A stretch of DNA of 64,000 nucleotides from Paenibacillus sabinae T27 (GTDB lineage Bacteria; Bacillota; Bacilli; Paenibacillales; Paenibacillaceae): contig NZ_CP004078.1 in NCBI RefSeq assembly GCF_000612505.1, forward strand, positions 665,001 to 729,000. The letters are read 5' to 3'. This document shows, one piece after another, positions 33,625 to 48,672 of this stretch; the stretch's first letter is position 1, and the number at the start of each line of letters is the position of its first letter. Both the position numbers and the translations under genes were made by a program. The notes under the pieces are model-generated. The model saw only the letters and a program-made list of their open reading frames with translations, searched no databases and was not told the origin of the DNA.

Positions 33625-33942
33625 ATGGCTATCAAAGGGCAAAAGTTTAAAACGTATTCCGAAGAGATCAAGAAAGAGGCCGTTCGCCTGCATGTTGTGG
33701 AAGGATGGACCTACCGAAAGATTAACGAACATTTAGGCATTCAAGACCCGCAGAGGATGAAGAAGTGGATGCGCAAATACCGGGAACAAGGCGAATTTGG
33801 ACTCCTGGATCAGCGAGGCAGACGAGAGGAATACATCAATCAAGACCGGTATGTTCAAAAGCTCAAGCGGGAAAACGAAATGCTAAAAAAGTGCTTGGAA
33901 ATCTGGATACAGGAGGTAAGGAAGAAAGGTATGTCCTTGTAG
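33625..33942 (+). CDS. IS3-family transposase OrfA (helix-turn-helix part)
   Basis: 105 aa. The HTH region has F-K-T-Y-S-E-E-I-K-K-E-A-V-R-L, W-T-Y-R-K-I-N-E-H-L-G-I and K-K-W-M-R-K-Y. A leucine-zipper-like end (L-K-R-E-N-E-M-L-K-K-C-L-E) spans the frameshift point. It provides DNA binding and dimerisation and ends 51 bp past the slippery site. Confidence 0.92.
   Translation: MAIKGQKFKTYSEEIKKEAVRLHVVEGWTYRKINEHLGIQDPQRMKKWMRKYREQGEFGLLDQRGRREEYINQDRYVQKLKRENEMLKKCLEIWIQEVRKKGMSL
33885..33891 (+). promoter_or_regulatory. programmed -1 ribosomal frameshift site
   Basis: A-AAA-AAG is in phase with orfA (A, AAA, AAG) and moves ribosomes exactly into the orfB frame, giving the OrfAB fusion. orfB lacks a good independent start near its conserved beginning, which supports use of the site. 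Confidence 0.85.
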
Positions 33943-34775
33943 AGAAGGCGTCTGCCCAAGGTCGGATCACAGAATTGTGCCAGTTATTCGGCGTTTCCAG
34001 AAGCGGTTATTACGCATACCTGAAGCGAAAACAGACCGATCGGGATGCAGATGCCAAGAAACTCATCAGTAGAGCTTACTGGCGCTATGAGGGGAAGTAC
34101 GGTTATCGGCAGCTCCAACTTATGATATGGCAGGACGAGGGGATATGGATGAACCACAAGAAGATACTGCGTCTCATGCAACAGCTTGGCCTTCAAGCTA
34201 AGATCCGCCGAAAACGCCGCTTGAACGTGACGTACCCGACAGGTGAGCGTGTAGCTGAGAACTTGCTCAAACGAAACTTTACAGCTGAAAAACCAAACCA
34301 GAAATGGGTCACCGATGTCACCCAATACCGTGTCGGGGATCGCTGGCTGTATCTTTCAGCGGTGAAAGACTTATTTAACAACGAGATAGTGGCCTACCAG
34401 CTAGGTGAACGCAACGACAATGAGCTGGTTCTACAGACGTTCACCAAAGCTTTTGCCAAGCAAAAAGACGTGACCGGATTGGTCGTTCACAGCGACCAGG
34501 GATTCCAGTACACGTCTCATGCTTACCACGACATGCTGCCACAGGTTGGCGCCCAAATCAGCATGTCTCGCCGGGGCAATTGCCTAGACAACGCCTCCAT
34601 GGAGAGCTTCTTCTCGCATCTCAAAACGGAAGGACTCTATCCCTATGATATCCGAAATCTGGCAGAGGCACAAAGCCGAATTGAGAAATACATACGATTT
34701 TATAACCGAAAACGGCCGCAACGTAAATTAAATAAACTGACGCCGGTAGAGTACCGGCGCCAGTTTGCAGCCTAG
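33888..34775 (+). CDS. IS3-family transposase OrfB (rve/DDE integrase domain), expressed as OrfAB
   Basis: About 295 residues from the frameshift point. HTH_21-like Y-W-R-Y-E-G-K-Y-G-Y-R-Q is followed by the catalytic core: W-V-T-D-V-T-Q-Y, H-S-D-Q-G-F-Q-Y and the final Glu in D-N-A-S-M-E-S-F-F-S-H-L-K-T-E. The C-terminal Y-I-R-F-Y-N-R-K-R-P-Q is standard. DDE residues are intact, so the element may be active. The open frame extends upstream to 33765 within orfA but that part is out of phase with the real protein. Confidence 0.92.
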   Translation, partial: KVLGNLDTGGKEERYVLVEKASAQGRITELCQLFGVSRSGYYAYLKRKQTDRDADAKKLISRAYWRYEGKYGYRQLQLMIWQDEGIWMNHKKILRLMQQLGLQAKIRRKRRLNVTYPTGERVAENLLKRNFTAEKPNQKWVTDVTQYRVGDRWLYLSAVKDLFNNEIVAYQLGERNDNELVLQTFTKAFAKQKDVTGLVVHSDQGFQYTSHAYHDMLPQVGAQISMSRRGNCLDNASMESFFSHLKTEGLYPYDIRNLAEAQSRIEKYIRFYNRKRPQRKLNKLTPVEYRRQFAA

Positions 34776-37121: not shown

Positions 37122-37137
37122 GTGGGACCGTTCCCAC
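37122..37137. promoter_or_regulatory. LacI-family operator 1 (upstream of the 37.2-kb block)
   Basis: GTGGGACCGTTCCCAC is a near-perfect palindrome with the central CG typical of LacI-type sites. Its complement TGGGAACGGTCCCA differs by one base from the site at 40510-40523. Confidence 0.75.
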
Positions 37138-37167
37138 GACTACATCATGTCTGAGGGGAGGCCTATC

Positions 37168-37641
37168 ATGCTGCTAAATGTCAGCGGACAGCTTGCTCCT
37201 TCCGATTCCAAGCGTCATATCACCTATGAATTTCGGCTGGACAAGCCTGCGGCAGCCATCAAGATCCGGTTCGCCTATGGGCCCAAGCTGCTGAAGGACG
37301 ACGAACAAGCCAAGGATTTAATCATGCAAGCCATTGATTCCTATATTACTCCGGAGCATCAAAGTCCAGTCCGGGAAGGCTGGAGACGATATTTACCGCT
37401 CAAAAATCTTCTTACCCTCTCGGTAGACGATCCTGACGGATACAGAGGAGCGTGCCATAGGCAGGATGCCGAGCAGAATCTTTTTCTGTCCGAGCAGGAA
37501 GCGTCCGAAGGGTTAATGTCAGGAAAAATGGCTTTAGGAGAGTGGAGCATAACGATCAGCGCTCACGCTGTCGTTACGGAGCGTTGCTCGTATGAATTGT
37601 CGGTTTGGACGGAGGAGGCGGAACCCGGATGCGCTGGCTAG
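37168..37641 (+). CDS. hypothetical protein coupled to the PHP hydrolase
   Basis: 157 aa from the ATG at 37168 (GAGGGGAGG upstream; a more distant ATG at 37147 overlaps no ribosome site). No signal or TM. Strand-rich ends (I-T-Y-E-F-R-L, I-K-I-R-F-A-Y; E-W-S-I-T-I-S-A-H, Y-E-L-S-V-W-T) suggest a beta-sandwich, like the lipid- or sugar-binding domains sometimes found beside PHP hydrolases. Its end overlaps the PHP gene by 13 bp, so the products probably work together. Family not recognised. Confidence 0.7.
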   Translation: MLLNVSGQLAPSDSKRHITYEFRLDKPAAAIKIRFAYGPKLLKDDEQAKDLIMQAIDSYITPEHQSPVREGWRRYLPLKNLLTLSVDDPDGYRGACHRQDAEQNLFLSEQEASEGLMSGKMALGEWSITISAHAVVTERCSYELSVWTEEAEPGCAG

Positions 37642-38618
37642 CTTGCGAACTGCATACGCATACCTTTCACAGCGACGGCAGACAGTCCTTGCGGGAACTG
37701 GCCGAGGGCGCGGCGAAGCTGGGCTTCGACTGCATCGCGCTTACCGATCATAATACGATGTCGGGACTCCGGGACGGTGAGCAGATCCAGCGGGAAACAG
37801 GGATCGTCATTATCCCGGGCATGGAGTGGACGACCTTCCACGGGCATATGGTGACGATTGGCTTGCACAATTTTGTAGATTGGCGAAGAGCGGAAAAATC
37901 GGACATTCACGAAGGAATCTCCATGGTTCACGGGCAGGGCGGGCTGGCCGGAATGGCGCATCCCTTTCGGATCGGCAGTCCTGTCTGTACCGGATGCTAC
38001 TGGGAATACGAAATCAGGGACTGGAACGATCTCGATTACATCGAGGTATGGTCGGGAACGTTCGCACCCGTCAAGCCCGAGAATCGGCGGGCATTCGACC
38101 TGTGGACGGACCGGCTGAACGCCGGGAACCGCATCGCGGCAACATCCGGACGGGACTGGCATGAGCAGGCGGACACGGACGACCCTCTCTCGGTCACGTA
38201 TCTGGGAGTGGATGACGGGCCAGGGACGGCTTCGGAAAAAGCGGTTCGGGCGCTTGCCGAGGGAAGAGCCGCGGTAACGATCGGTCCGCTGGTAACGCTG
38301 GAGGCGGAGGCCGGCGGCAGATTGTACGGCATCGGCGAATCCGTCTCCACACCAAATCGAGCAGAGTCAATCCACTTCCGGGTGAAGATCGACTTTTCCG
38401 TTAGACAGACACTATGGGAGCTGCCGAAACAGGATTTTACATTAAAAATCACGGGCAATTCCGGCATCCTCGAGCAGTGCGCCATAGGTTCGGCCGATCA
38501 GAGCCGCGAATTCAGTATCCCGGCGGACGGGTTGATCTGGGCAAGGGCTGAATTATGGGGGATTGTAAAAGGCATGCGGACGATGGTCGCTTTTACGAAT
38601 GCCATATATATAAGCTGA
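37629..38618 (+). CDS. CehA/McbA-type PHP-domain metallohydrolase
   Basis: 329 aa. PHP motif I is E-L-H-T-H-T-F-H-S-D-G (His9, His11), motif II is A-L-T-D-H-N-T, then G-M-E-W-T-T-F-H-G-H, G-M-A-H-P-F and later T-S-G-R-D-W-H. This pattern is typical of CehA/McbA-like phosphoesterases and carbamate hydrolases that use two or three metals. A C-terminal ~90-residue beta-rich extension is present. The ATG at 37629 after GGAGG lies inside the end of the preceding gene. Linked GDPD and ABC importer genes favour a phosphodiester or phosphomonoester substrate. Confidence 0.88.
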   Translation: MRWLACELHTHTFHSDGRQSLRELAEGAAKLGFDCIALTDHNTMSGLRDGEQIQRETGIVIIPGMEWTTFHGHMVTIGLHNFVDWRRAEKSDIHEGISMVHGQGGLAGMAHPFRIGSPVCTGCYWEYEIRDWNDLDYIEVWSGTFAPVKPENRRAFDLWTDRLNAGNRIAATSGRDWHEQADTDDPLSVTYLGVDDGPGTASEKAVRALAEGRAAVTIGPLVTLEAEAGGRLYGIGESVSTPNRAESIHFRVKIDFSVRQTLWELPKQDFTLKITGNSGILEQCAIGSADQSREFSIPADGLIWARAELWGIVKGMRTMVAFTNAIYIS

Positions 38619-38699
38619 ACTTGAGATTTTTTTCATCAGATTCAGTCGTAACTGCGGGGAATGTTTGGACTTCCCGCCGATGAATAAGGAGGAAAAATA

Positions 38700-39431
38700 G
38701 TGAACGCTGTTCCGCTTATTACCGCGCATACCGGATGCATGAACACGCCCGATAACTCCCTGCTCTCCATCGAGACGGGCCTTGCGAACGGGGCGGATAT
38801 TATTGAAGATGACATTCGGGTTACCCGCGATGGCGTACCCGTGCTCAGCCATGACGATGCGGTTCGCCTGGCGGACGGCTCCATGGGCAGCCTTTCCCAC
38901 ATGACGATTTCGGAGCTGTACGAGAATCTGTCCATTCCGGTCGTCAAGCTGGAGCAGGCATTGCATTTGGTGCGGTGCACGGGGAAGACGATGAATCTCG
39001 ACCTGAAGACGGATGAGTGCATAGAGCCGGTGTCGGAATTGGTGAAGCGGCTTGGCCTCATCGACCGCGTCTTTCTGTCGGGCTGCGAGGCGGACAGGGC
39101 CCGCAAAGCCAAGCACAGCAACGCCAGATTGCGCAAGCTGCTCAATGTGAATGCTGTACGGTTTCTTGCCGGGGACTTTACGGAAGCGGTCCTGCAAACC
39201 GTTCAGGATGCCAAAAGCGCCGGCTGCTTCGGAATTAACGTGCCCTACCGTTTGGTTGAGCCGTACCTGCTGGAGAAAGCGGCTGAATACGGGCTTCAAA
39301 TCTACATCTGGACCGTTGATGAGGAAAAGGACATGAGGTTATACGCGGGTATGGGCGTACATTCCATCACCACAAGAAATGTTACCGATCTCGTCCGGAT
39401 TAAAAAGGAAATGTTGGCGGAAGGAAGTTGA
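38700..39431 (+). CDS. glycerophosphodiester phosphodiesterase
   Basis: 243 aa from a GTG at 38700, after AAGGAGG. T-A-H-T-G-C replaces the usual A-H-R-G motif (catalytic His kept, Arg changed to Thr), then N-S-L, E-D-D-I-R-V-T-R-D-G-V-P-V-L-S-H-D and M-N-L-D-L-K. It lacks a signal peptide, so it acts on imported glycerophosphodiesters, releasing glycerol-3-phosphate and an alcohol. The changed HRG motif suggests a variant substrate. Its stop overlaps the LacI-type regulator start. Confidence 0.85.
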   Translation: MNAVPLITAHTGCMNTPDNSLLSIETGLANGADIIEDDIRVTRDGVPVLSHDDAVRLADGSMGSLSHMTISELYENLSIPVVKLEQALHLVRCTGKTMNLDLKTDECIEPVSELVKRLGLIDRVFLSGCEADRARKAKHSNARLRKLLNVNAVRFLAGDFTEAVLQTVQDAKSAGCFGINVPYRLVEPYLLEKAAEYGLQIYIWTVDEEKDMRLYAGMGVHSITTRNVTDLVRIKKEMLAEGS

Positions 39432-40435
39432 ACGTGGGCTATAACATAAAAGAAATCGCCGCACTTGCCGGCGTCTCCAAATCTACGGTTTCCCGAGTGA
39501 TCTCGGGCTCGGGCTATGCCAGCCAGGAGGCCCGTGAACGCGTCATGAAGGTGATCGAAACGCTTCAGTACAAGCCGAGCGCGGTGGCGAGAGCGATGGT
39601 TTCGCAGCGGACGCACAATATCGGCGTCATCATTTTTCGGGAGCAGCAGCCCATCGTGTCCCATCCGCTGTACGGCAAAATCGTTGACGCGATCCTGATG
39701 GCCGCCGGGGCGAAAGGTTATTCGGTGTTCCTGACCACAGATCATGAAATGTCGCTGCGTTCCACTGATTTTATGCTGGAAAAGCGGGTTGACGGATTAA
39801 TTCTGATCAGCCGGCTCCGGCAAAATGTCATCGATTACGTGAAATCATTTCAAATTCCGTATTTGATGGTCAACGGATCGACCGACGATCCCGAAGTCGT
39901 CCAGATCGTAAGCAAGGATGAAGAAGGAGGGGAGCGCGCCGCCTCCTATCTGTACCAGCTCGGGCATCGCCGGATCTTTGTGATCGCGGGTCCGCAGGAG
40001 CACCGAAGCCATAATTTACGCCTGCAGGGCTTTAGCGGCAGCATGGAGAAGCTGGGCAACAAGGAAGGGCTGTCTGTCGTGTTCTCGCCCGAATCCAGCT
40101 TTGATATGGGATACCGGGTGATGCTCGAGCATTGGGACTTGTTCATGCAGGGAGGCTTTACGTCTTTATTTGCAACGAACGACATGCTTGCTCTTGGGGC
40201 CATGAAGCTTCTGGCCGAACGGTCGGTCCCTGTGCCGGAGCAAATCGCCGTGATGGGCTTTGACGATATCGACTTTGCTTCCATGTATTCCCCTTCGCTT
40301 ACAACGGTGAGGGTGGAGAAGGAAAAGATGGGACATGACGCCATATGGATGCTGGACCGGTTAATCCGGAATGAGGACGGTCTCCCAAAGCTGAACGAGT
40401 ATGCCAGTGAGCTGATTATCCGCCAGTCTACCTAA
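39428..40435 (+). CDS. LacI-family transcriptional regulator
   Basis: 335 aa from a TTG overlapping the GDPD stop (a GTG at 39434 is an alternative). N-terminal HTH N-I-K-E-I-A-A-L-A-G-V-S-K-S-T-V-S-R-V and a periplasmic-binding-protein-like core (F-A-T-N-D-M-L-A-L-G-A, V-M-G-F-D-D-I). It is the last gene of the first block and probably represses both blocks through operators at 37122-37137 and 40509-40524, with a product of the pathway as inducer. Confidence 0.92.
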   Translation: MNVGYNIKEIAALAGVSKSTVSRVISGSGYASQEARERVMKVIETLQYKPSAVARAMVSQRTHNIGVIIFREQQPIVSHPLYGKIVDAILMAAGAKGYSVFLTTDHEMSLRSTDFMLEKRVDGLILISRLRQNVIDYVKSFQIPYLMVNGSTDDPEVVQIVSKDEEGGERAASYLYQLGHRRIFVIAGPQEHRSHNLRLQGFSGSMEKLGNKEGLSVVFSPESSFDMGYRVMLEHWDLFMQGGFTSLFATNDMLALGAMKLLAERSVPVPEQIAVMGFDDIDFASMYSPSLTTVRVEKEKMGHDAIWMLDRLIRNEDGLPKLNEYASELIIRQST

Positions 40436-40508
40436 ATTATCCTTTACGATTCATGTAATCTCAGATAATACTGTTCAAATATTAAAAAATTAAAGTAATA
40501 ACGGGAAC

Positions 40509-40524
40509 ATGGGAACGGTCTCAT
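40509..40524. promoter_or_regulatory. LacI-family operator 2 (upstream of the ABC importer)
   Basis: ATGGGAACGGTCTCAT matches the complement of operator 1 at 13 of the central 14 positions. An AT-rich stretch (40470-40500) just upstream probably holds the promoter; a TTCAAA/TAATAA pair at about 40475-40500 is possible. Confidence 0.75.
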
Positions 40525-40563
40525 ATTAAGGCTGCCCATCCCGGAAAGGGGCTTTACAGGCGC

Positions 40564-41388
40564 ATGAGTTGGTATTTCAGAGCAATCGGTTTTCGAAAAA
40601 TATTCGAGTTCCTGCTGCTTGTCGCTTTTGTCGTGTTCTTTGTCGGCCCGCTCTTGAATCTCGCCGTTCTTGCCTTCAGCAGCAAGTGGAATTATCCCGA
40701 CCTGCTGCCGCGGCAGTGGTCTTTACAGTGGTGGCATTTCGTACTTCAGGAGGATGATATCGCCAAATCCATCGGGCTTTCGTTTCTGATCGCCGCGTTA
40801 GTCACGGCATTGTCCATCGTCATTTGCATCCCGGCCGCCTATGCTTTTGCAAGGATTCGATTTCCGCTGAGCCGTTTCTTTCTGTTCTCTTTTCTGCTTA
40901 CGCACGCTTTTCCAAAAATGGGGCTGTATGTCTCGATTGCCGTCCTCTTTTATAAACTGGGGCTGATGAATACGCTGCTCGGCGTGGTCCTCGTTCATAT
41001 GATTAATGTTCTGATGTTTATGACCTGGATTCCGACGGCAGCCTTCCGCAACGTTCACACGGCTCAGGAAGAATCGGCGAGAGATGTGGGCGCCACGCCG
41101 TTCCGCGTATTCTGCAGCATTACGCTGCCGATGGCGATGCCGGGTATTCTGGTCGCTTCCATCTTCACCTTTCTGAACTCTTTGGACGAGGCACAAGGCA
41201 CTTTCCTGGTCGGAATTCCCGATTTCAAGACGATGCCGATCGTTATGTACTCGATCATCGCTGATTTTCCGAGCAGCGCCGGCGCCGTATTCTCAATCAT
41301 TCTTACCGCTCCGACCATTATTCTGCTGTTAGCCGCCCAGCGTTTGGTCAGCGCGGATATTATGGCCAGCGGTTTCCAAGTTAAGTAA
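40564..41388 (+). CDS. ABC transporter permease (PotC/PhnV-like)
   Basis: 274 aa, six TM segments. The E-E-S-A-R-D-V-G-A-T-P-F-R-V-F loop is the EAA motif that contacts the ATPase. The family is the polyamine / iron(III) / 2-aminoethylphosphonate group (MetI-like fold). The ATG at 40564 follows a GGGGC-rich weak ribosome site. It pairs with the second permease at 43689. Confidence 0.9.
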   Translation: MSWYFRAIGFRKIFEFLLLVAFVVFFVGPLLNLAVLAFSSKWNYPDLLPRQWSLQWWHFVLQEDDIAKSIGLSFLIAALVTALSIVICIPAAYAFARIRFPLSRFFLFSFLLTHAFPKMGLYVSIAVLFYKLGLMNTLLGVVLVHMINVLMFMTWIPTAAFRNVHTAQEESARDVGATPFRVFCSITLPMAMPGILVASIFTFLNSLDEAQGTFLVGIPDFKTMPIVMYSIIADFPSSAGAVFSIILTAPTIILLLAAQRLVSADIMASGFQVK

Positions 41389-41439
41389 CTTAGTCCCGGG
41401 ACAATAACCGGATCAATTTCCGGATCACGGAGGAATGTC

Positions 41440-42477
41440 ATGAGTGTACAGCTTTCGATTCGCAATTTGACCAAACGTTACAAGACAGGAGAAGGCGTAA
41501 CCGGTATTTCGCTCGATGTGAAGAAAGGTGAATTGGTCACCCTGCTTGGCCCTTCCGGCTGCGGCAAAACGACGGTGCTGAGAAGCATCGGCGGCTTTCT
41601 TGAGCCCGATTCGGGCGAGATTATGATCGCAAGCAAAAGCGTGATAAAGCTCCCGCCGGAGAAACGGCCGACCTCGATGGTCTTTCAGGGGTACAATCTG
41701 TGGCCGCATATGTCCATTTATGACAATCTGGCCTTTGGGCTCAAGATTCGCAAGACGCCCAAGGCGGAAATCAAGAAAGCCGTCGAGGACGCGCTTCGGC
41801 TGGTGCGGCTGCCCGGTGTGGAGAAGAAATTCCCCAGCCAGCTGTCGGGCGGGCAGCAGCAGCGGATTGCCGTTGCCAGATCCCTTTTGCTGAAGCCAGA
41901 GGTACTGCTGCTCGACGAGCCTTTCTCCGCGCTTGACGCCAAGCTTCGCCACGAGATGAGAGAAGAGCTGCGCGAGATTCAGACCGAGACCGGCCTGACC
42001 ATGGTGTTCGTCACCCATGACCAGGAGGAAGCCCTGTCCCTGTCCGACCGGATCATCGTGATGAACCAGGGTAATATCGAGCAAATCGCGGCGCCACAGG
42101 ATATATACGATTCGCCGGATACGCTGTTTGTCGCTCAGTTTATCGGCAAAATGAACTTTTTGGAGGGGGTGGTGGAAGAGGACAAGCTGCGTGTGGGAGG
42201 TCTGGTGTTTCCGAATACGAAGCGTCTTGCGGGGTCAGTCGTTATCGCCGTCAGGCCGGAGGATGTCATGATCGGTCCGGATTCCGGAGAAAGAGACGGC
42301 TTGTATGGAACAATCAAGCAAGTGATGGTGCTCGGCCATTATGCCGAGGTGTCGGTTGAACTTGACGGGTACGGCCCGATTAGGGCGTTTCAGCCGAGAG
42401 ATTCCGTGAAGGAGCTTAGGGTGGGTCAGCGTGTAACCGTTGCTTTTGCCAAAGTGATTGCTTATCCGAACAAGTAA
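41440..42477 (+). CDS. ABC transporter ATP-binding protein (PotA/FbpC/PhnT-like)
   Basis: 345 aa. Walker A G-P-S-G-C-G-K-T-T, signature L-S-G-G-Q-Q-Q-R, Walker B V-L-L-L-D-E-P, H-loop V-T-H-D. The C-terminal ~110 residues form a TOBE/OB domain, as in importers for spermidine, Fe3+ or aminoethylphosphonate. It is placed between permease 1 and the binding protein. Confidence 0.93.
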   Translation: MSVQLSIRNLTKRYKTGEGVTGISLDVKKGELVTLLGPSGCGKTTVLRSIGGFLEPDSGEIMIASKSVIKLPPEKRPTSMVFQGYNLWPHMSIYDNLAFGLKIRKTPKAEIKKAVEDALRLVRLPGVEKKFPSQLSGGQQQRIAVARSLLLKPEVLLLDEPFSALDAKLRHEMREELREIQTETGLTMVFVTHDQEEALSLSDRIIVMNQGNIEQIAAPQDIYDSPDTLFVAQFIGKMNFLEGVVEEDKLRVGGLVFPNTKRLAGSVVIAVRPEDVMIGPDSGERDGLYGTIKQVMVLGHYAEVSVELDGYGPIRAFQPRDSVKELRVGQRVTVAFAKVIAYPNK

Positions 42478-42501
42478 GGACTAACAAGGAGGAAATTTTA
42501 C

Positions 42502-43692
42502 ATGTTTCGTATGAAAAAACGTTTTACTGTACTGTCAGCTCTGGCGTTGTCGTTCGGTATTCTGGCCGGTTGCGGTACAGCGAATAACAATTCAGCAGGC
42601 TCCGCCGCCGCTGGCGGTTCCTCATCCCCGGCAGCAAGCAATTCCGCCTCTTCCAGCGCACCGGTCGAAATTCAGTTTTATTTTACAGGCTCCCAGAACG
42701 TAAAGAACTTGTGGGATCAGCTCACACCCATGTTCGAAGAAAAAAATCCGGACGTCAAAGTGAAACTCGTGTACATTCCTTCCGGAACCGGCGCGCAACC
42801 GACCTATGACCGTATTTTGGCCGCCAAGCAAGCAGGCAAGGGATCGGGTGGTATCGACCTTTATGAAGATGGTCTGCCCGTTGTCACTCAAGGTCAAAAA
42901 GACGACCTCTGGGATACGCTGAGCACAAGCTCCGTTCCGAATCTCGCCAAAGTGGATGCAAAAACGATGCAGGATGTCGCCAATCTGGCGGTGCCTTACC
43001 GTTCGTCAGCCGTCGTGCTCGCTTATAACAGTGAGAAGGTGACTACGCCTCCGCGCACGCTGGACGAGGTGTTCGACTGGATTAAGAAGAATCCTGAGCG
43101 TTTTGCTTATAACGACCCGTCCACCGGGGGCTCCGGCAGCTCCTTCGTAACGACGACACTTTATAAAGATCTGCCTGAAGAGGCTATCCATAACGACGAT
43201 CCGGCCATCATGAAGGATTGGGACAAAGGCTTTGCGACGCTGAAGGAACTGGGACCCTACCTGTACGGCAAAGGCATTTATCCGAAAAAGAATCAGGGCA
43301 CGCTGGATCTGCTGACGAGCGGAGAGGTCGACATGATTCCGGCCTGGTCGGACATGGTCCTTGAACAACTGGATAAAGGCCAACTGCCGGCAACGACAAA
43401 AATGCAGCAGATTACACCGGGCTTCAACGGCGGACCGACTTATCTGATGGTGCCGAAGCTGTCCGACAAGAAAGAAGCCGTCTATAAATTCCTGGACTTC
43501 GTCCTGTCGCCGGAAGCGCAAACTGTCATGATTAAGACGATGCACGGCTTCCCGGGAATCGAGCTTACGAACATGCCACAGGATATTCAGGATTCGTTTA
43601 AAGGCGTGTCGGAAGGCTTCCGTAATTTCAACGTCGGTGAACTGAGCAAAGAGATCAACAAACGCTGGCAGAGCGACGTGGCGGCTCAATGA
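42502..43692 (+). CDS. ABC importer solute-binding lipoprotein
   Basis: 396 aa. Lipobox L-A-G-C with the lipidated Cys at residue 24, then a Ser/Ala/Asn-rich spacer to about residue 52 and a type-2 binding-protein fold (P-V-E-I-Q-F-Y-F-T-G-S ... Y-R-S-S-A-V-V-L-A-Y-N-S-E-K). It resembles PotD/FbpA/PhnS-type proteins. A well-placed AGGAGG precedes it. The ligand is unknown; linked phosphodiesterase genes point to an organophosphate. Confidence 0.9.
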   Translation: MFRMKKRFTVLSALALSFGILAGCGTANNNSAGSAAAGGSSSPAASNSASSSAPVEIQFYFTGSQNVKNLWDQLTPMFEEKNPDVKVKLVYIPSGTGAQPTYDRILAAKQAGKGSGGIDLYEDGLPVVTQGQKDDLWDTLSTSSVPNLAKVDAKTMQDVANLAVPYRSSAVVLAYNSEKVTTPPRTLDEVFDWIKKNPERFAYNDPSTGGSGSSFVTTTLYKDLPEEAIHNDDPAIMKDWDKGFATLKELGPYLYGKGIYPKKNQGTLDLLTSGEVDMIPAWSDMVLEQLDKGQLPATTKMQQITPGFNGGPTYLMVPKLSDKKEAVYKFLDFVLSPEAQTVMIKTMHGFPGIELTNMPQDIQDSFKGVSEGFRNFNVGELSKEINKRWQSDVAAQ

Positions 43693-44528
43693 GGAAGGAA
43701 GTAAAAATGGGGATATTCGGACTTTGTCTGGTTATCCCCTCCTTTCTCTTGTTGTCGGTGATCGTAATCATTCCGATTATATTATCTTTTTTCGAAAGCT
43801 TGCGCGATGAAAGTGGCGGGTACGGGCTGAGCCGTTATGTGTATTTGTTTACTGATGAGGGGATGCGCGCGAATATCGTATTTACCCTTCAGGTGACGAT
43901 TATTTCCTGTGTGATTGTGCTGGCTGTCAGCTACGCACTTGCGGTATACATGCGCTTCAGCACCGGCAGGCTGGTCGATTTAATCCGCAAAACCTATATG
44001 ATTCCAATCTTTATTCCAGGGGTTATCGCTACCTATGGCCTGATCAACCTGCTCGGGAACCACGGCTGGCTGTCCCGCTGGCTGCTGCTGTTCGGGGGGA
44101 CGCTTCCGCGGATTATTTTTGATCAGAAGGGCATTATCATTGCGAATCTCTGGTTCAATATCCCGTTTACGACGATGCTGCTCAGCTCGGCGCTGGCGGC
44201 AATTCCGAACGCTGTTATTGAGAGCGCCAAGGATATCGGGGCGGGTCGCTTGCGCATCTTCTTCCGTATCATCATGCCGCTATCGTACAAAACGTTTCTC
44301 GTCGCGGTCACCTTCGTATTCATGGGTGTCATCGGATCGTTTACCGCTCCGTTTCTGGTCGGTCCAAATGCTCCCCAAATGCTCGGCGTGTCGATGGAGC
44401 AGGTATTCAGCGTCTTCCAGGAGCGCGAGCAGGCTGCGGCGATATCCTTTTTTACGTTCCTGCTGTGCTCGGTGCTCGGCTACTTCTACATCCGTTCGAT
44501 GGTGAAAGAAGAGACGGCCCGGCCATGA
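43689..44528 (+). CDS. ABC transporter permease (PotB/PhnU-like)
   Basis: 279 aa, six TM segments. E-S-A-K-D-I-G-A-G-R-L-R-I-F-F is the EAA loop. The start overlaps the binding-protein stop by 4 bp (ATGA) and the stop overlaps the next gene by 4 bp, so translation is tightly coupled. Confidence 0.92.
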   Translation: MRKEVKMGIFGLCLVIPSFLLLSVIVIIPIILSFFESLRDESGGYGLSRYVYLFTDEGMRANIVFTLQVTIISCVIVLAVSYALAVYMRFSTGRLVDLIRKTYMIPIFIPGVIATYGLINLLGNHGWLSRWLLLFGGTLPRIIFDQKGIIIANLWFNIPFTTMLLSSALAAIPNAVIESAKDIGAGRLRIFFRIIMPLSYKTFLVAVTFVFMGVIGSFTAPFLVGPNAPQMLGVSMEQVFSVFQEREQAAAISFFTFLLCSVLGYFYIRSMVKEETARP

Positions 44529-45442
44529 TTGAAATCTATACGCATGAATGGAAGACGGTTGGCGCGAATTTGGCCGAGGCGATGCTGGATGGAAAAGTCA
44601 GTGTAGAAGACACATGCGCAGCCATCATCCCCGTGCTTGATCTGCTGCGCAAGGTGTTTCCGGATGAAGCCGAGTACCCGGCAAGGCAGGGAGAATATTA
44701 TCATCTGGACGGGCAGCTCCGCCGGGCGGGACAGGCCTATCAGAGGACGCTTGCGCTGGAACCTCCGCTTGCGATTACGGAACAGGAAGCCGCCGCTATC
44801 CGCCGCCACTGCCCGCTGCTGCTCACAACCGAGGCGGAATGCTTTCCCCTGAAGGATATCGCTGCCGTCCATCATCCGACGCGGCCGCTGATCGGGTATC
44901 ACCTGTTCTGGGAGGACGACTTCGACTTTCCGGACGATTACGAGCCCTGCGATCATGAAGAGATATGGGTGGAGTATGATCCTGTAGAGGAGACGGTCAC
45001 CCAGGTCATGACGTTCTTCCACAGCTCGGTAATCTCCTCGGAGGAGGCGGTCCGGGAAGCCAGGGAGCGTGGGGAACGGCCGATTATCCGGATCGAGTGG
45101 GGGAAACACGGGTCGCTGCTCAAGGGCTGGGAAACTATCGACATTCCGATGAAGAACATGACCATGCAGGATTGGATACGGCAAACGTACGAACATGTCA
45201 AGAATGGCGGGCGTCTGCCGGAGCATCCGCTGAAGCGATTTTGGCCCCGGGGGTTCGAAGGCTCCTATGAGTCTTACATCGACTTCTCCGTTCCGATCGA
45301 TCCGCTGCTTTATCTGGAGCGCAAGCCGCTTATATTCAAATCGCTTCATGTGAATGCGATTCTGTTCACGGAGGCGATCCCTTACAATTTCCACCCAAAA
45401 ATGGAATGGCCGGACCGGTTCGCCCGGGCATTGCTTGATTAG
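44525..45442 (+). CDS. conserved-looking protein of unknown function in the ABC operon
   Basis: 305 aa, starting inside the permease stop (ATGA). The N-terminal ~80 residues look helical (a TPR-like A-G-Q-A-Y-Q-R-T-L-A-L-E-P). The centre has Y-H-L-F-W-E-D-D-F-D-F-P-D-D-Y and D-H-E-E-I-W-V-E-Y-D (residues 125-152), then F-F-H-S-S and R-I-E-W-G-K-H-G-S near 195, a repeated His/Asp/Glu-rich pattern that could bind metal. No signal or TM. I do not recognise the family; a hydrolase acting on the imported substrate is a guess from context. Confidence 0.75.
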   Translation: MIEIYTHEWKTVGANLAEAMLDGKVSVEDTCAAIIPVLDLLRKVFPDEAEYPARQGEYYHLDGQLRRAGQAYQRTLALEPPLAITEQEAAAIRRHCPLLLTTEAECFPLKDIAAVHHPTRPLIGYHLFWEDDFDFPDDYEPCDHEEIWVEYDPVEETVTQVMTFFHSSVISSEEAVREARERGERPIIRIEWGKHGSLLKGWETIDIPMKNMTMQDWIRQTYEHVKNGGRLPEHPLKRFWPRGFEGSYESYIDFSVPIDPLLYLERKPLIFKSLHVNAILFTEAIPYNFHPKMEWPDRFARALLD

Positions 45443-45573: not shown

Positions 45574-45598
45574 GGGACGCCGTCAGGCGTTTCTTTTT
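45574..45598 (+). terminator. second hairpin terminator before the DUF3048 gene
   Basis: GGGACGCC-GTCA-GGCGTTTC followed by TTTTT. Confidence 0.65.
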
Positions 45599-47054: not shown

Positions 47055-47669
47055 ATGAAGTTGAGAAAAAAGGACATCTTCTTCGAGACGCTTGAGAATA
47101 TGGCCGACACGATTGTACAGGCTGCCGATTACTTTGCCCAGCACCTTTCCGATCTTAGCGATCTGGAGCTGTTTGCCGGGGAGATGAAGAAATATGAATC
47201 CCAGTGTGACACCTACACGCATACGATAATCAAAGAGCTGAACAAGACCTTCATTACCCCGCTGGAACGCGACGATATTATGGCGCTGACTACGAGCATG
47301 GACGACGTTATCGACGGTCTGGATTCCTCTGCTACCCGTTTCTATATGTACAACATGACCGAGACGGACGAGTATATCAGCCAGTTCGCCGAGATTTTGC
47401 GCCAAAGCTCCTACGAAATTCAAAAAGCCGTTCATCTGCTGTCCCAGAAGAAGCTGCTGGCCATCCGCGAACATACCATCCGGCTGAACGATCTGGAGAA
47501 CCAGGGCGATGAGGTGCTGCGCCACTGCACAAAGGCATTGTTCGAGCAGGTTAAAGACCCGATTGAGCTGATCAAACGCAAGGAGCTCTATGAGCGGCTC
47601 GAAACGACTACGGATAAATGCGAAGACGTAGCGAACATGCTGGAATCGATCATTATGCGCAACTCATAA
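47055..47669 (+). CDS. DUF47 / PhoU-like phosphate transport accessory protein
   Basis: 204 aa, all-helical. M-D-D-V-I-D-G-L-D-S and the C-terminal Y-E-R-L-E-T-T-T-D-K-C-E-D-V-A-N match the DUF47 family (PhoU fold with metal-binding Glu/Asp), which accompanies PiT transporters and probably regulates them. The PiT gene follows after 13 bp. AAAGGAG precedes the ATG. Confidence 0.93.
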   Translation: MKLRKKDIFFETLENMADTIVQAADYFAQHLSDLSDLELFAGEMKKYESQCDTYTHTIIKELNKTFITPLERDDIMALTTSMDDVIDGLDSSATRFYMYNMTETDEYISQFAEILRQSSYEIQKAVHLLSQKKLLAIREHTIRLNDLENQGDEVLRHCTKALFEQVKDPIELIKRKELYERLETTTDKCEDVANMLESIIMRNS

Positions 47670-47682
47670 GGGGCAAGTTACT

Positions 47683-48672
47683 ATGGATACATCTTTATTA
47701 GTGCTAGGCATTGTTATACTACTCGCACTCGCCTTTGATTTTATCAACGGTTTCCATGATACAGCCAACGCGATTGCAACCTCGGTTTCGACCCGGGCGC
47801 TTTCGCCGCGGACCGCGATTATTATGGCGGCGTGCATGAATTTTGTCGGCGCGATTCTGTTTACCGGCGTGGCCAAAAGAATCGGCGGCAGTGTAACCGA
47901 TCCGACGAAGCTGGATAACGGGATCGAGATCGTCATCGTGACGCTTCTGGCTGCGATTATCTGGAACCTCATAACCTGGTGGTTCGGTATCCCTTCGTCC
48001 TCTTCCCATGCGCTCATCGGAGCGCTGGCCGGAGCGGTCTACGTAGGGGCGGGTTCGGATCATATTAAATGGAGCGGATTTTCCGAAATTGTGGAGGGGC
48101 TTATTTTCTCCCCGATCATTGCTTTCGTCATCGGATATATTGTTATGACCATACTCAAATGGATATTTGCAAGACGAAGTCCGCATACCGTCAACAAGGG
48201 CTTCCGTACGATGCAGATTTTGACCGCCGCGTTCCAGTCCTTCACCCACGGGACGAATGATGCGCAGAAGGCGATGGGGATCATTACGTTTGCGCTGCTG
48301 ACCAGCGGACGCCTGGATACGATGGAAGTACCCCTTTGGGTAAAAATCTCGGCAGCCACGGCAATGGCGCTTGGCACCTCGATCGGCGGCTGGAAGATCA
48401 TCAAGACGATGGGCACCAAGATTTTCAAAATCGAACCGATCAACGGGTTTGCCGCCGACATTTCGGCCGCTTCCGTTATTTTCTCGGCGACTATGCTGCA
48501 TTTGCCGGTCAGTACGACCCACGCGATTACATCCGCGATTCTCGGCGTCGGCTCGGCGAAGCGTTTCTCTGCAGTCAAATGGGGTGTAGCAGGCCGGATC
48601 GTCGTCACCTGGTTTATTACGATACCGATCAGCGCCGTGCTGGCAGGACTCCTTTTCAAAATTATATTTTAA
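47683..48672 (+). CDS. pit: low-affinity inorganic phosphate transporter, PiT family
   Basis: 329 aa with about ten hydrophobic segments. The paired PiT signatures are D-F-I-N-G-F-H-D-T-A-N-A near the N-terminus and Q-S-F-T-H-G-T-N-D-A-Q-K in the centre. It co-transports metal-phosphate (or Pi) with protons. Operon with DUF47. Confidence 0.94.
   Translation: MDTSLLVLGIVILLALAFDFINGFHDTANAIATSVSTRALSPRTAIIMAACMNFVGAILFTGVAKRIGGSVTDPTKLDNGIEIVIVTLLAAIIWNLITWWFGIPSSSSHALIGALAGAVYVGAGSDHIKWSGFSEIVEGLIFSPIIAFVIGYIVMTILKWIFARRSPHTVNKGFRTMQILTAAFQSFTHGTNDAQKAMGIITFALLTSGRLDTMEVPLWVKISAATAMALGTSIGGWKIIKTMGTKIFKIEPINGFAADISAASVIFSATMLHLPVSTTHAITSAILGVGSAKRFSAVKWGVAGRIVVTWFITIPISAVLAGLLFKIIF

Follow-up and report, generated by a model that had tools for sequence, protein, structure and literature searches.

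A conserved, LacI-associated gene set of Paenibacillus sabinae T27 with a likely role in the import and breakdown of a small organic phosphodiester

What does a soil bacterium do with an ABC importer, two dissimilar hydrolases, and a LacI-family regulator that are encoded side by side? The question is raised by nine plus-strand genes, here called A to I, that span 37147-45442 of a 64,000-nucleotide stretch of the Paenibacillus sabinae T27 genome (the window), which corresponds to positions 665001-729000 of a 5.27-Mb single-contig genome. Genes A and B specify a PHP metallohydrolase divided between two polypeptides, C is a variant member of the GDPD (glycerophosphodiester phosphodiesterase) family, D is the regulator, E to H encode the importer, and I encodes a protein with a predicted tetratricopeptide repeat (TPR) domain (Table 1). 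An original prediction, made from the letters at 37122..45442, had proposed two blocks of genes (A to D and E to I) for uptake and hydrolysis of organophosphate diesters under one LacI-type regulator. Its gene set and family calls were borne out by coordinates and by Pfam and NCBIfam profiles, and the stop-start overlaps that it reported within the blocks are present in the pairs A/B, C/D, G/H, and H/I. The analysis described here suggests that the locus is likely to carry out import, diester cleavage, and dephosphorylation under a single LacI repressor.

Conservation of the set was followed in 76 loci, drawn from a scan of titled genomes with G and belonging mostly to Paenibacillus, Cohnella, and Bacillaceae (individual loci are given L numbers). 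Gene presence was counted from a tblastn table, since the open reading frame (ORF) filter hid some genes; the absence of C from the ORF listing of L140 is probably such a filter effect. The full A-H set was present in 45 of the 76 loci and all four importer genes in 75, while A and B occurred together in 64 and never singly. C was present in 51 loci, 46 of which also hold A and B. The two blocks are thus conserved together, as expected of one system; separate conservation would have refuted the original prediction, and the outcome favours it. The importer is conserved with two hydrolases whose N termini (B and C) have no signal peptide as judged by eye, as proposed for enzymes acting inside the cell. 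The two-block layout itself holds for the window and not for the 27 loci with the commonest order, an uninterrupted D-E-F-G-H-A-B-C (6 of them with a trailing I, 21 without). Ten loci (4 with I) share the window's order, A-B-C-D-E-F-G-H, and E-F-G-H-A-B-C-D was seen in 8, where C and D are merely ~30% identical to their counterparts here. At an E value of 1e-30 or better, C was found in 14 of 100 relatives, the window's genome included. Twelve of the other 13 carry the A-H set, and one (L043) carries a sister operon described below. Among these 12, the D protein of L044 is only 29% identical, and the LacI gene of L041 is in two pieces, represented by two overlapping frames at L041:3061-4070, apparently because of a frameshift.

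A shared palindrome links the two blocks. TGGGACCGTTCCCA stands ten bases 5′ of gene A and TGGGAACGGTCTCA stands forty bases 5′ of gene E; we take both to be LacI-style palindromes with a central CG. Across the whole genome, the zero-mismatch places of the pattern TGRGANCGNTCYCA are exactly these two sites, and with up to one mismatch it occurs at 13 places, versus 7 for a reversed control pattern. In 43 loci whose LacI protein is >50% identical to D (the orthologous-LacI set), a site of this type, matched with a looser 12-base pattern, lies 5′ of the first gene in 40; L076 and L079 have no site 5′ of the first gene, and L080 has one before E only. The 903,596 bases of these 43 loci hold 53 perfect 14-mers, 51 of which are upstream of the first gene (by ≤420 bases) or of E (by ≤200 bases). 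The remaining two are a copy just before E in L115 and a copy within the LacI gene of L079. Of 398 Bacilli genomes, 8 contain a longer version, the 18-mer TGTGRGANCGNTCYCAYA; the rows returned include no match to the control. Four of these copies adjoin gene A of this operon, one belongs to a sister operon, and three are near LacI genes whose products are merely 27-28% identical to D. The same type of palindrome therefore precedes both blocks, in keeping with the single LacI-type regulator of the original prediction, and D is predicted to bind these sites as operators.

On balance, the genes probably constitute a catabolic unit under local regulation. Its substrate would be a small organic phosphodiester, most likely one of a sugar or polyol, that yields a phosphomonoester other than sn-glycerol-3-phosphate. 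Lipoprotein G would capture the phosphodiester, and permeases E and H with ATPase F would import it intact. The variant GDPD C would cleave it to an alcohol and a phosphomonoester, from which the split PHP enzyme A+B would then remove the phosphate. D would repress both promoters through one type of operator until the substrate or a product binds to it. A sugar or polyol phosphodiester is favoured because the sensor is a LacI protein, because an inositol-monophosphatase-family (IMPase) protein can take the place of A+B (see below), because the phosphatase is a dedicated one, and because C has lost the arginine of the HRG motif.

The HRG motif defines the GDPD family. C scores 94.9 bits against the family profile (PF03009; cut-off, 23.6), and HRG is present in the solved GDPDs 2pz0 and 4oec and in both of the genome's further GDPDs that were read, out of three. 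The window's protein has HTG, and in 50 aligned orthologs, the window included, the arginine position is occupied by T (22), S (15), A (7), or C (6) and in none by arginine; the altered motif that had been reported for this GDPD is thus real. All 50 retain the first histidine (H10), the glycine of HxG, E36, D38, and the N, D, and K of NLD[LI]K, and the second histidine (HD) is present in the ortholog rows shown. We take the two histidines to be catalytic and the Glu/Asp pair to bind metal. The third metal ligand of GDPDs is presumably Glu, and the third acidic position of C is Asp in 50/50 orthologs, within NLD[LI]K. A database search gave a similar picture: among the best 120 of 215 homologs, the arginine position was T in 105, S in 13, and unmatched by the search expression in 2, and NLD was kept in 120/120. 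C therefore shares with the GDPD family its profile match, catalytic histidines, and Glu/Asp metal pair but differs in having HTG, HSG, HAG, or HCG for HRG and Asp as the third acidic residue. By alignment, these proteins constitute a subfamily without the HRG arginine. Since the catalytic histidines remain, C is probably an active enzyme that binds its phosphodiester differently.

The original prediction placed the importer in the polyamine/Fe3+/aminoethylphosphonate type and pointed to UgpB- or PhnS-type importers as carriers of organophosphates. E-H resemble UgpBAEC and PhnSTUV in subunit composition and in partial profile similarity but fall short of the NCBIfam cut-offs of both. For UgpBAEC the scores were 14.2 of 411 bits (UgpB), 27.9 of 335 (UgpA), and 316.7 of 432 (UgpC); for the PhnSTUV/PhnS2T2U2 equivalogs they were 374.1 of 457.7 (PhnT2), 75.6 of 358.7 (PhnV), and 88.7 of 593.25 (PhnU2), with 21.5 of 310 for the 2-aminoethylphosphonate (AEP) binding protein. 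Because the importer is below both the AEP and the glycerol-3-phosphate cut-offs, neither type can be claimed. The earlier interpretation as a whole is partly supported. These scores also bear on the most conventional alternative, that the locus scavenges glycerophosphodiesters: G would import deacylated phospholipid head groups such as glycerophosphoinositol and glycerophosphoglycerol, C would be a normal GDPD releasing sn-glycerol-3-phosphate, and A+B would serve for phosphate release. Such compounds are common in soil, C is far above the GDPD cut-off, and its first histidine, Glu/Asp pair, and HD histidine are conserved as noted above. We nevertheless consider this reading unlikely. The HRG arginine is absent throughout and the third acidic position is Asp; sn-glycerol-3-phosphate would call for no dedicated phosphatase; the UgpB and UgpA cut-offs were missed by far and that of UgpC by 115 bits; and the sensor is a LacI protein.

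If the diester is cleaved by C, the phosphate would be released by A+B. The best match of gene A is below threshold (DUF6669, 19.3 bits; cut-off, 27), and B matches the CehA/McbA PHP metallohydrolase family (NF038032) at 294.2 bits (cut-off, 80) over the whole catalytic chain. For the start of gene B, the ATG at 37629 is more likely than the TTG at 37605. In the ORF set, a profile of 36 A proteins matched the first ~150 residues of seven PHP proteins of 504-525 residues from Bacillaceae-type loci (E values, 3e-37 to 1e-49). Weaker matches, each in two pieces, were to three other PHP proteins (in L118, L120, and a second one in L083). Of the 64 loci with A and B, 7 have the N-terminal domain fused and 57 encode it separately. 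Given the match to the fused proteins and the strict co-occurrence, A+B is one enzyme on two chains, and the first of the two proteins that had been left as unknown is a PHP N-terminal domain and no independent component. Residues H9, H11, D16, H41, E66, H73, H111, D176, and H178 of B, which we take to be the PHP metal ligands, are kept in 66-67 of 67 aligned sequences. The HxH, D, DH, E, AH, and DWH positions align with those of 3e0f, and H73 is outside the aligned pieces. B thus shares the family profile and the metal-site residues with CehA/McbA proteins and differs in that its N-terminal domain is encoded separately in this type of locus. A+B most likely provides the phosphatase step, as judged from the sister operons described next.

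In the sister operons, an ortholog of D accompanies another importer. L169 has, in order, LacI (61% identical), a short ORF, a binding protein, two permeases, an ATPase, an IMPase-family gene, C (41%, HSG), and I (56%); the binding-protein gene is immediately preceded by two palindromes. In L043, C (39%, HTG) is divergent from LacI (54%) and is accompanied by a different importer, an IMPase, and a DUF6454 protein. L149, L151, and L152 have LacI (51-54%), an importer, an IMPase-like gene (Pfam was run for L149), and I; C was not seen within the fetched span of these three. GDPD and IMPase genes also adjoin distant relatives of G in Streptomyces (L116) and in a Rhizobiales bin (L119). The IMPase occupies the place of A+B, which argues that A+B is a phosphomonoesterase. 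This bears on a second alternative, in which cleavage of the diester, or of a cyclic phosphate produced by C, is the work of A+B itself and C has a different or prior role. The 18 loci with A+B and no C (see below) would then run on A+B alone, and PHP enzymes include a cyclic phosphodiesterase (PMC5460133). An IMPase-family protein, expected to be a monoesterase, replaces A+B beside C in L169 and L043, and we judge this alternative distinctly improbable.

The palindromes of L043, L149, L151, and L152 had been considered as upstream sites and were rejected as such, as they are located within the LacI gene. Including L079, intragenic palindromes are at a similar place in five loci (L043:11320, L149:3758, L151:8390, L152:4092, and L079:7727) and may be operators or coding coincidences. 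Their placement in the four sister operons leaves the odds for the phosphodiester pathway unchanged, since these are based chiefly on gene content and the orthologous-LacI set of 43 loci.

PotABCD cut-offs were missed as well, narrowly by PotA (TIGR01187, 336.7 of 355.6 bits) and widely by PotC (70.4 of 326) and PotB (68.9 of 348), and G, which has a lipobox by eye, has solved relatives by profile that are mostly named polyamine- or sugar-binding proteins. It is nonetheless very unlikely that the importer takes an unphosphorylated ligand (a polyamine, a sugar, or a thiamine-like compound) while the hydrolases act on an internal metabolite and share regulation for another reason: to set against the relatives of G and permease and ATPase profiles that are near the PotABC and PhnTUV models, below cut-offs, the importer and both hydrolases occur together in 46 of 51 C-bearing loci under the same palindrome, and sister operons pair a different importer with the same kinds of enzymes.

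Several observations weigh against the proposed phosphodiester pathway. Within the span searched, A and B are missing from five of the 51 C-bearing loci. Another 18 loci of the 76 lack C and carry instead, between H and A/B, an unrelated protein of ~440 residues, here called X; the two hydrolases are therefore not strictly coupled. L058 has LacI and the importer with neither hydrolase. Importer profiles are as near to polyamine and sugar systems as to phosphate-ester ones. B need not be a monoesterase, because PHP enzymes include rare diesterases (PMC11656708) and the namesakes of its family, CehA and McbA, hydrolyze carbamates (PMC8292978). With regard to regulation, TGTGRGANCGNTCYCAYA is absent from the genome of the window, where both sites depart from it at the outer positions, and a consensus scan at both operators found no sigma-A-like promoter. 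In L043, L149, L151, and L152, the palindrome is part of the LacI coding region and precedes the binding-protein gene by 300-odd bases; the L149 and L152 copies are imperfect. For this reason, shared operator use among the sister operons is firm solely for L169.

Family X matches no Pfam family; its model has a carbohydrate-binding-module-like (CBM6/35/36-like) N-terminal domain (example L090:12037-13365, with 17 further loci). C and X never occur together in any of the 76 loci, but this exclusion follows clades and is therefore no proof of equivalence. Given the C-less, X-bearing, and A/B-less variants, clades may differ in their substrate or in the route used.

The nearest functional parallel to the proposed phosphodiester pathway is the acc system of Agrobacterium, which comprises ABC import of agrocinopine, the phosphodiesterase AccF, the putative phosphatase AccG, and a repressor, AccR, that binds the phosphomonoester product (PMC4526662). 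Both would combine an importer of an intact sugar phosphodiester, an intracellular diesterase, a putative phosphatase, and a repressor in one unit. The window's phosphatase is instead a split PHP enzyme and its repressor is of the LacI type; the comparison is one of gene roles, and no plant-tumour or quorum-sensing link is suggested. By analogy, the window's unit appears to follow agrocinopine logic with other protein families. AfuABC provides a precedent for the importer: predicted to be of the iron type, with a cluster D binding protein, it actually binds hexose phosphates (PMC4546632), so an iron-predicted importer can carry sugar phosphates. The ligands of AfuABC are monoesters, and no GDPD or PHP partner is described in the sections consulted.

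A more specific proposal is possible, though we hold it to be somewhat doubtful: that the locus represents a new Bacillales pathway whose substrate is a phosphodiester of a sugar or polyol other than glycerol. In it, a GDPD subfamily with rewired motifs (HxG, NLDxK) would leave perhaps a cyclic phosphate or a 2-phosphate-type monoester, a two-gene PHP enzyme would finish the reaction, importers and phosphatases would be interchangeable under one LacI family, and a cytoplasmic TPR protein with the fold of necrosis-inducing-like (NLP) proteins would act as a helper. If the substrate is indeed a sugar or polyol phosphodiester, this lineage would join the agrocinopine users in having a route dedicated to compounds of this kind. 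The analysis gathers several genes of soil Bacillales that are unknown or easily misnamed into one testable pathway, in which a small orphan protein (A) is explained as a detached PHP domain. A GDPD subfamily is marked whose motif differs even though sources name it glycerophosphodiester phosphodiesterase, and the palindrome may serve as a pointer to this unit across genomes.

Gene I, the second of the proteins left as unknown by the original prediction, recurs with the system as an optional component. Eleven of the 76 loci carry it, and each of these also has C. Within the order, 18 of 296 genomes, the window's included, encode it; the surroundings were fetched for 16 of them and place I in this operon in 11, in the sister operon in 3, and elsewhere in 2. 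I had no Pfam or NCBIfam match. The model of I (mean pLDDT, 95.7) shows a TPR domain at the N terminus and a beta sandwich at the C terminus. Among solved structures, the sandwich best matches NLP proteins, a likeness at the level of fold and with a weak Foldseek E value. By eye, I has no secretion signal; it starts MIEIYTHEW and runs straight into the TPR helices. We do not claim a toxin role for I, and our guess is that it might handle the sugar head group.

Table 1. Positions of genes and predicted sites in the window
Feature	Coordinates	Strand	Basis
Gene A, detached N-terminal domain of a CehA/McbA-type PHP hydrolase, 164 aa	37147..37641	+	Profile and co-occurrence with B
Gene B, PHP metallohydrolase, CehA/McbA family, catalytic domain; likely phosphatase	37629..38618	+	NF038032, metal-site residues
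Gene C, GDPD-family phosphodiesterase with HxG in place of HRG, plus NLDLK	38700..39431	+	PF03009, alignments
Gene D, LacI-family regulator	39428..40435	+	Family profiles, operator conservation
Gene E, ABC permease (PotC/PhnV-like)	40564..41388	+	Family profiles
Gene F, ABC ATPase with TOBE domain	41440..42477	+	Family profiles
Gene G, solute-binding lipoprotein (SBP_bac_8)	42502..43692	+	Family profiles; solved relatives by profile
Gene H, ABC permease (PotB/ModB-like)	43689..44528	+	Family profiles
Gene I, TPR domain and C-terminal NLP-like beta sandwich in model; optional component	44525..45442	+	Model, context
Predicted LacI-type operator TGGGACCGTTCCCA upstream of gene A (block 1)	37123..37136		Genome scan, conservation in loci
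Predicted LacI-type operator TGGGAACGGTCTCA upstream of gene E (block 2)	40510..40523		Genome scan, conservation in loci
Terminator-like hairpin past gene I	45574..45593	+	Region has 11 such sites versus a shuffle mean of 8.4; weak on its own

Other genes were noted near the operon or its relatives. A DUF6454 protein is encoded beside the operon or its variants in L053 (14281-15138), L090 (14871-15725), L066, L058, L043, and L079 (Pfam was run on four). A gene of ~450 codons for a membrane protein, MATE-like by eye, follows the operon in L091, L102, and L105, where its sequence was seen, and genes of similar length are at the same place in L099-L101, L103, L104, L106, and L113. In the window, two overlapping transposase frames upstream of the operon, at 33625-34775 (HTH_Tnp_1 and rve integrase core), presumably represent an IS3-like insertion sequence. 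About 1.6 kb downstream, at 47055-48672, there is a PhoU_div (DUF47) and PHO4 phosphate transporter pair, which could handle released phosphate.

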